Below are positions 51,099 through 52,014 of a DNA stretch of 52,014 nt, piece after piece. The notes below the pieces were generated by a model, which was not told the origin of the DNA, searched no databases, and saw nothing but the letters and a program-made list of their open reading frames with translations. The stretch is from Paludibacter sp. (GTDB lineage Bacteria; Bacteroidota; Bacteroidia; Bacteroidales; Paludibacteraceae): the NCBI GenBank assembly GCA_020049515.1, contig JAIFKQ010000011.1, positions 1 to 52,014 of the forward strand, in the 5' to 3' direction. Both the position numbers and the translations under genes were made by a program. Position 1 is the stretch's first letter; each line of letters starts with the position of its first letter.

Positions 51099-51244
51099 AA
51101 TTCAATGATTAAATTGTTTATTATAATTTGAAAATTTATTTTTTTGTACAGCCTGTTTATAACAAATTAGCCTTTAAAAAGTTATGTAAGAGTAACTATA
51201 ATGTTTAGAAAAACTAGTTAATTCAAAAAGGTTGTAAGTAAATT

Positions 51245-51280
51245 AAAAAGGTCGAACATCTACATGTACGACCTTTTTTT
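51245..51280. terminator. Bidirectional hairpin with T tract
   Basis: aaaaaggtcg ... cgaccttttttt. Confidence 0.7.
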
Positions 51281-51756
51281 GTTGGCGTTGAGGCAAAACA
51301 ACCTAACTCCATATCCTATTAACAGTCAATAGCATGAAATTTTTCGCAATCTTAATTTTTTGCAAATTAATTCCATTTTATTTCAGTCTTTTTGACTACC
51401 TTTGGTTCGCTTTGTCATACAATTATTCTGAGCACAAAAGTAGGTCTTATTTTTGAGATTACCAAATTAAAAATTCGCTTTTTAAAATTAAAGATGCATC
51501 TATGCTTTATCCTATTAAGCACTAAATATCAATATATTATGTTTGATTAAGAACTGCTTATTATCAATTTATCTGTAATTTTTCTCTTTAGCAGCAAAAG
51601 TAAATGGTTAAGTCGATGGTATTATCTTATACTCTAAAATAGTCTGAGTTTTTTACACTGCCAATTTTATTTTGTACTAACGTTTGGAAGGAGCTTTATT
51701 CCTTGCATTTTTCGGTGGGCGTTGAGGGGATGGAAGTATGACATTCCGATATATCG

Positions 51757-51823
51757 GAATTCGAACCCCCGACCCTTCCGATAAAATCGGAATGCTCTGA
51801 ACCAGCTGAGCTAAACTTTCCGG
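51757..51823 (-). other. Degenerate tRNA-like sequence (tRNA-Lys-UUU-like core)
   Basis: Minus strand ggaaagtttagctcagctggttcagagcattccgattttatcggaagggtcgggggttcgaat: D-arm, 5-bp anticodon stem around ATTTTAT, T-loop TTCGAAT; but no complementary 3' acceptor or proper T-stem. Confidence 0.65.
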
Positions 51824-52014
51824 CTTTTTTGCGATTTAATATATAGTTCTGCTTGGTAAGCATCTGATTTTGATAGGTATTCTTTCTCATAGACTAAAAC
51901 CCAAGGGATACCTCTTTTGGTAAAAGTACTCCGCCCTGTATTATGTCTTTTTATCCTATCGGCAAGATTTTGCGTAGAACCCACATAATACTGATTGCAT
52001 TTTTCGGAAAATAA
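51811..52014 (-). CDS. GIY-YIG endonuclease family protein (UPF0213/YhbQ-like), 5' end outside window
   Basis: Reverse-strand translation LFSEKCNQYYVGSTQNLADRIKRHNTGRSTFTKRGIPWVLVYEKEYLSKSDAYQAELYIKSQKSRKV*. Confidence 0.88.
   Translation of the reverse strand, partial: LFSEKCNQYYVGSTQNLADRIKRHNTGRSTFTKRGIPWVLVYEKEYLSKSDAYQAELYIKSQKSRKV

Follow-up and report, generated by a model that had tools for sequence, protein, structure and literature searches.

Small GIY-YIG nuclease genes with a functional tRNA gene on one side and a scrambled version of that tRNA on the other are most likely selfish elements that invade tRNA genes, as judged from their sequence anatomy. The stretch of DNA analyzed here (the window) is the complete 52,014-nt contig C177 of the Paludibacter-group MAG G000, an assembly of 202 contigs that is 82.75% complete. 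The end of this contig probably carries the 3' end of one such small mobile unit, whose tRNA-like segment is a displaced copy of tRNA-Val. The family to which the gene belongs is a widespread group of tiny nucleases tied to tRNA genes and is apparently undescribed. Searches of an open-access library turned up no account of GIY-YIG genes flanked by tRNA in the chromosomes of bacteria; one may exist in subscription journals or preprints.

A GIY-YIG reading frame that runs into a tRNA-Val copy

The contig stops at position 52014, within the nuclease ORF, and the 3' part of the gene is therefore what the window holds (Table 1). The catalytic-type YYVG, R, and E are present, and the N-terminal GIY strand lies beyond the contig end. 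Y16-x-G18, R26, and E62 are invariant in the family alignment, the window ORF included, and a GIY-YIG fold is predicted for the relative L061 with a pLDDT of 95.5. The nearest solved structures found by Foldseek are UPF0213 and SLX1, followed by UvrC and I-TevI, with E-values of only about 1e-3 for this small domain. The domain match together with the catalytic residues assigns the window ORF to the GIY-YIG nuclease superfamily. Its amino acid identity to ORFs of the same genus is 80, 73, and 68% (G032, G028, and G022, respectively). For the ORF body, up to the tRNA-like part, pN/pS is 0.15 to 0.32, and on this estimate the ORF body is under purifying selection.

The preliminary description of this DNA had noticed that a minus-strand GIY-YIG frame ends in ...KSRKV* as it enters a tRNA-like sequence, and this is confirmed. 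The protein ends SRKV*, with the stop TAG taken from GTTTAGCTCAG, where the tRNA-like sequence begins. The TAG is U8-A9-G10 of the tRNA itself, and the tRNA-Val remnant with the D arm overlaps the last codon of the ORF and the stop. The first 24 nt of the tRNA-like segment, GTTTAGCTCAGCTGGTTCAGAGCA, are identical to the tRNA-Val(UAC) of the genus through the D-arm, and positions 51756-51816 of the contig align with tRNA-Val positions 5-65. Against the genus tRNA-Val the segment has an alignment score of 66, and the next best place in 51.6 kb, on both strands, scores 22; this difference and the recurrence of the arrangement in relatives rule out a chance tRNA-like match. The segment had been likened to a tRNA-Lys with a UUU anticodon. 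That identity was wrong: the 24-nt identity and the alignment give tRNA-Val(UAC), and what looked like a UUU anticodon is the loop of the hairpin (TTCCGATTTTATCGGAA) that stands in place of the arm.

The acceptor and T-stem complements had also been thought missing. They are present (CCCTCAACGCCCACC; 15 of 15 positions match), and the alignment places them behind a 30-nt insert, so that the 3' strands of the window tRNA-Val are displaced and not absent. Part of the insert together with the preceding T makes up the palindrome TTCCGATATATCGGAA (51744-51759), and a similar insert is found in L003. The copy is nevertheless no functional tRNA gene, as had been recognized from the start: ARAGORN finds no tRNA gene, the Rfam tRNA model gives the tRNA-like stretch 28.9 bits (E 8e-4) against a gathering cut-off of 29 bits, and the T-arm is split. 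Because the contig stops short within the nuclease ORF, the tRNA upstream of it is out of view: the intact tRNA-Val lies past the contig end, and the window covers half of the unit. The assembly G000 likewise contains no intact tRNA-Val that could supply the missing side.

About 420 nt beyond the first copy there is a second remnant of tRNA-Val, followed by a terminator-like hairpin and T-run of the type found after tRNA-Val in the genus. A further insertion into tRNA-Val seems to have taken place here (51244-51293, minus strand). The approximately 200 bp before the second remnant (window 51274-51483) are 74% identical to the stretch directly upstream of the tRNA-Val of G024 (L048).

Table 1. 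Features at the end of the window, all on the minus strand, with the basis of each assignment
Feature	Position	Strand	Basis
GIY-YIG ORF, 3' part, 67 codons and stop	51811..52014	(-)	Pfam PF01541, E 3e-13
tRNA-Val remnant, end of acceptor 5' strand and D arm, GTTTAGCTCAGCTGGTTCAGAGCA	51793..51816	(-)	identity to genus tRNA-Val
Hairpin TTCCGATTTTATCGGAA in place of the anticodon arm	51776..51792	(-)	pattern match; L002-L004 and phylum-wide replacement
Variable loop, T-stem 5' strand, and T-loop, GGGTCGGGGGTTCGAAT	51759..51775	(-)	alignment to tRNA-Val
30-nt insert splitting the T-arm	51729..51758	(-)	alignment; pattern search
T-stem 3' and acceptor 3' strands of tRNA-Val, CCCTCAACGCCCACC	51714..51728	(-)	15/15 match; alignment
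Second, shorter tRNA-Val 3'-end remnant, CCTCAACGCCAAC	51281..51293	(-)	alignment
Terminator-like hairpin and T-run, GGTCGTACATGTAGATGTTCGACCTTTTT	51244..51280	(-)	aligns with tRNA-Val terminators of L002 and L048

A nuclease family adjoining many tRNA genes

The full unit is visible in relatives, where it consists of an intact tRNA, its terminator, a GIY-YIG ORF of about 80 aa, a degenerate copy of the same tRNA, and a duplicated terminator. In the same genus (L002-L004) the unit is found at tRNA-Val, and other loci involve Pro, Asn, Asp, Met, Arg, Lys, Leu, Ala, Gly, and Ser tRNAs; the family adjoins at least ten tRNA isotypes. Profile A1, built from 19 members, has matches at E <= 1e-8 in 241 of the 393 Bacteroidota genomes, frequently with several matches in one genome. 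MAGs labeled Cloacimonadota (L069) and Elusimicrobia (L081) also carry the family, and for these a binning error is possible. The sample taken for comparison comprised 184 ORFs in 142 loci, 168 of them with at least 300 bp of upstream sequence. A same-strand tRNA lies no more than 600 bp upstream in 128 of these 168 ORFs and an opposite-strand tRNA in one, a frequency that describes loci chosen by similarity to the window subfamily and is not a figure for all GIY-YIG genes. When the sequence after the ORF is compared with the upstream isotype and with 12 others, the upstream isotype is the best match in 99 of 129 cases.

Presence of the ORF is patchy (23 of 60 relatives), and tRNA-Val loci without the ORF, which may be unoccupied targets, exist in the same genus. 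Degenerate copies with no ORF behind them occur at L041 and L048, and arrays of tRNA copies are known both with and without ORFs (L005 in G037; L114). The ORF, degenerate copy, and terminator of G354 are tandemly repeated with a period of 315 bp, and five of the ORF copies score identically. A long tRNA-Val array in G037 (contig C3, L005/L024) contains intact and hairpin-bearing copies with two GIY-YIG ORFs interspersed.

The isotypes are clustered on the ORF tree, as the lineage-specific targets of a homing endonuclease would be. For 95 ORFs, the isotype label needs 30 changes on the tree, compared with 68 when shuffled, on a tree that has few columns and many unresolved forks. When the closest ORF is sought outside the host family, it has the same isotype in 37% of cases, compared with 10% after shuffling, and the window ORF clusters with Val-type ORFs, starred at 97. 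The ORF lineages thus stay mostly with one tRNA gene and switch to another only occasionally.

A vehicle for movement between species was sought among phages, viral contigs, and plasmids. No family match was obtained by tblastn against 50,697 phage records, no family member was confirmed on viral contigs, and the plasmids gave only a remote match, 37% to Bacillus yazA; we rejected all three as vehicles.

Decay of the copy and extent of the direct repeats

In type A loci (n = 89), where the intact tRNA precedes the ORF, the identity of the degenerate copy to the intact tRNA is 0.37 in the acceptor 5' strand, 0.71 in the D-arm, and 0.59/0.72 in the anticodon stem. At the 3' side it is 0.90 in the T-arm and 0.93 in the acceptor 3' strand. 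Other classes of RNA were considered for the loci that lack an upstream tRNA; Rfam and a reading of the loci revealed instead a mirror type B (n = 11), in which the degenerate copy is upstream and the intact tRNA follows the ORF. The type B copy keeps its 5' part (0.99) and has lost its 3' part (0.41). A few type A and type B pairings consist of two degenerate copies with odd ARAGORN isotypes (Cys aca, Phe aaa), and these were excluded from later counts. The displaced copy is without its original anticodon stem sequence and an intact tRNA remains at occupied loci, and from these sequences the host keeps one working tRNA.

The duplication is not confined to the tRNA. It extends at least 15 nt beyond the tRNA 3' end, through the terminator, in 58 of the 68 type A loci in which this could be measured, and in 45 of those 58 it ends no more than 12 nt from the ORF start codon, the search for repeats being bounded at the start codon with a smallest possible gap of 0. 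In most loci, direct repeats of about 100 bp enclose the ORF and reach its start codon, which leaves essentially the ORF as the unique sequence of the unit. The terminators are mostly the same in both copies, and tRNA sequences are highly conserved, so an imported 3' end would be hard to tell from a local one.

A replacement hairpin and dispersed palindromes

A T(C/T)CCG..CGG(G/A)A hairpin is present in 68 of 98 degenerate copies, compared with 3% of control windows from the same loci. Its 3' end stands at the exact anticodon-stem distance from the T-loop in 27 of the 36 copies in which this is measurable; in some copies the hairpin is elsewhere, in the T-arm (L114) or inside the anticodon loop (L075). 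The letters of the loop are often those of the original anticodon loop, for example Arg CTTCTAA, which becomes ATTTCTAAT, and it looks as if the stem has been swapped around a retained loop.

The palindrome of this hairpin is also scattered through many of these genomes. TCCCGAT..ATCGGGA occurs 49 times in G000 and 138 times in G034, and the reversed control pattern 0-1 times (0 in G000). The 18-bp perfect palindromes TCCCGATAGCTATCGGGA lie at many unrelated sites with no shared flanks, sometimes nested, in G000 (e.g., L098-L112), G034, and many other genomes. The median count of TCCCGA..TCGGGA per genome is 10 with the ORF and 2 without it, a correlation that holds in families f31, f42, f43, and f49 and not in all, by a statistic that ignores phylogeny. 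G020 has 42 palindromes and no detected ORF, and converse genomes also exist. The dispersed variant of G000, TCCCGAT, differs from the variant in its own tRNA copy, TTCCGAT.

It is conceivable, if doubtful, that the GIY-YIG family is the engine of these dispersed Bacteroidota palindromes, acting as a structure-guided nuclease that would overwrite hairpins with a TCCCG..CGGGA stem while the loop is kept. The anticodon and T arms would then be hit first and tRNA genes would be the home base of a hairpin-to-hairpin system unlike REP/RAYT, a picture that we hold just as doubtful.

An ORF-less degenerate tRNA-Val downstream of tRNA-Val in G020 (contig C248, L041) carries TCCCGATAGCTATCGGGA in its D-arm and TTCCGATTCAATCGGAA as its anticodon arm, that is, two palindromes within one tRNA copy. 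A separate dispersed repeat of about 120 bp or more, centered on TTCCGATAAATCGGAA, is present at 12 or more near-identical places in G028 (L085-L096) and also in a second species (L097 in G004). The G028 repeats had matched query positions 83-109 and were considered as solo copies of the element; they were rejected as such, since they are a separate repeat that merely contains TTCCGAT..ATCGGAA.

Origin of the units

The explanation that we favor, and consider probable, is that of a chromosomal, free-standing, homing-type GIY-YIG element that targets tRNA genes. It draws on the anatomy of the unit, the direct repeats, the isotype fidelity, the patchy presence, the arrays, and the selection on the ORF, all of them read from sequence. 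Mobility or homing into tRNA genes was among the possibilities raised in the preliminary description, and the anatomy supports it strongly through the tRNA adjacency (128/168), the isotype match (99/129), and lineages that track isotype. What that description had set against itself, homologs without a tRNA-like 3' segment and an isolated chance match, turned out the opposite way.

The nuclease would cut tRNA-gene DNA at loci without the insert, and the break would be repaired either from an occupied locus or by local segmental duplication, with the tRNA sequence serving as homology. Repair would copy the ORF in, and the locus would then hold an intact tRNA and a partial one, which would be free to decay and whose anticodon arm would be overwritten by the TCCCG..CGGGA-type hairpin; repeated cutting and unequal recombination would give rise to the tandem arrays. 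In classical homing, insertion destroys the target site. The persistence of an intact tRNA does not fit with this, and either the recognized site would be elsewhere or cutting would be tolerated and would produce the arrays. The homing explanation is also weakened by the repeats, which are mostly locally identical (tRNA and terminator) and also fit local tandem duplication without transfer, and by phages, viral contigs, and plasmids, which gave no vehicle between species.

Local duplication could by itself have formed the units if a structure-specific nuclease gene of housekeeping type, similar to UPF0213 or SLX1, became trapped in tandem duplications at tRNA loci that tolerate or generate arrays. 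The nearest solved structures are those of these two proteins, the repeats are derived locally with the local terminator included, and tRNA-copy arrays exist with and without ORFs. We judge it unlikely, given that one ORF family is found at many isotypes in most of the phylum, that its lineages track isotype across host families with patchy presence within a genus, and that the repeat boundary is at the start codon in most cases. The frequency of the hairpin in degenerate copies and its exact anticodon-stem position, the greater number of palindromes in genomes with the ORF, their abundance in G000 where the control pattern is absent, and the TCCCGATAGCTATCGGGA in the D-arm of the G020 degenerate tRNA-Val would all be expected if a GIY-YIG-driven counterpart of REP/RAYT mobilized the dispersed TCCCGA..TCGGGA palindromes and tRNA copies were their nursery. 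This is rather improbable as the origin of the units: there are palindrome-rich genomes without a detected ORF and the converse, the correlation of counts is confounded by phylogeny and clear only within some families, and the dispersed TCCCGAT of G000 is not its tRNA-copy variant.

The usual footprint of an integrase-type island is an intact tRNA, cargo, and a displaced tRNA 3' fragment, which the units resemble. A remnant of such an island, formed by insertion at the tRNA 3' end with duplication of the att site, is very improbable here: the insert consists of one ORF of about 240 bp and includes no integrase, the duplication begins near the tRNA 5' end, passes the 3' end, and reaches the ORF start codon, and there is a mirror type in which it is the 5' part that is duplicated. 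It is equally hard to credit that the tRNA-like copy is a functional RNA, a decoy or antidote paired with a GIY-YIG protein that cuts tRNA or other RNA. Its hairpin shape is retained though the stem is swapped, the loop letters are often kept, and the hairpin position is constant; against this, type A copies have lost the acceptor 5' strand and type B copies the T-arm and acceptor 3' strand, ARAGORN and Rfam reject the window copy, and the related folds act on DNA.

Relationship to known systems

The closest demonstrated process is that of SegB of phage T6. SegB is a free-standing GIY-YIG homing endonuclease of phages T4 and T6 that cuts within tRNA genes and in T6 drives recombination-dependent tandem amplification of segB with tRNA-Tyr (PMC13096335). 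It is similar to this family in having a GIY-YIG gene among tRNA genes, tandem repeats of tRNA and nuclease, and no group-level isotype preference. SegB is a phage gene there, in contrast to this family, which is chromosomal and absent from the phage records and viral contigs searched. The displaced tRNA copy, the hairpin replacement, and the mirror type belong to this family and are not described in the SegB sections of that paper (PMC13096335). Close phage relatives, which would speak for orthology with SegB, were not found by tblastn among the 50,697 phage records. The SegB motif given there, RAWTSGAAC, corresponds, as we read it, to the complementary strand of the tRNA T-loop. Among the degenerate type A copies paired with an intact tRNA that carries this motif, 23 of 34 retain it, and as a general target it is an unlikely site here.

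In anatomy, the closest systems are the mORFs of fungal mitochondria with duplicated gene 3' ends, found in atp6 of Allomyces and in atp6, atp9, cox2, and nad3 of Glomus (PMC3630166). In these, an endonuclease ORF lies in a conserved gene, the duplicated 3' end keeps the gene functional, and the native end comes to lie, displaced, after the ORF; the Glomus examples include one GIY-YIG enzyme (PMC3630166). Type A loci are similar in having an endonuclease ORF followed by the displaced 3' end of the host gene and in their direct repeats. The mORF targets are mitochondrial protein genes, whereas those of this family are bacterial tRNA genes, and an mORF insert brings a foreign 3' end, whereas the duplicates here are mostly locally identical, through the terminator. 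Hairpin replacement occurs in this family and none is reported for mORFs (PMC3630166).

UPF0213 and SLX1, the closest solved structures, share the same single-domain fold. No link to tRNA genes and no flanking duplications of a target are known for them, and SLX1 has an extra domain and a partner protein. The likeness to REP/RAYT lies in dispersed short palindromes and the gene of a small single-domain DNA enzyme with an adjacent palindrome. RAYTs are Y1 transposases and are not linked to tRNA, whereas the protein of this family is GIY-YIG, and mobilization of palindromes by the latter is so far only a correlation.

If the homing explanation is correct, selfish DNA of a very small kind, no more than one ORF of about 80 codons, is carried on chromosomes throughout a bacterial phylum and would use the most conserved genes of the cell as landing sites at the price of leaving an intact tRNA behind. 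Homing into tRNA genes would be extended from phages, and the strategy of the duplicated gene end from fungal mitochondria, to bacterial chromosomes. The units would provide a route for the expansion and decay of tRNA arrays, and could account for some contig breaks and for mis-annotated small "GIY-YIG nuclease family proteins" beside tRNAs. They would also suggest a connection, open to testing, with the palindromes of Bacteroidota that still lack an explanation, with the swapped anticodon stem of the tRNA copy as an odd and precise mark.

tRNA-encoded tails

The preliminary description had proposed that a tRNA fragment was captured as a coding C-terminal extension, and that removal of one base would join the two reading frames. 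The tail SSAGSEHSDFIGRVGGSN is the tRNA-Val sequence spelt in the +1 frame (compare SSAGSGHSDTIGRVGGSNPSTPT in L002), and capture is unsupported for the window gene: the ORF body is under purifying selection, and the three nearest relatives stop ahead of the tRNA-like part, with C-termini ...IEELIAK* (L002), ...IEELISENKS* (L003), and ...IEILIQQQTH* (L004); on this ground a coding tail is rejected here. A one-base frameshift is not the natural explanation, because these relatives stop earlier and the window is approximately 27 nt shorter than L002 where the ORF meets the tRNA-like part. In other branches of the family the stop codon lies within the tRNA-derived hairpin in 16 of 65 cases and past the hairpin in 3 of 65. 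tRNA-encoded tails therefore exist in the family; they vary, and they look incidental. In L154 (G313, contig C10) the reading frame spans the entire tRNA-Val copy (...NWFRASRPTVGRVGGSNPSTPTNKKRFTHQ), an actual tRNA-encoded C-terminal tail.
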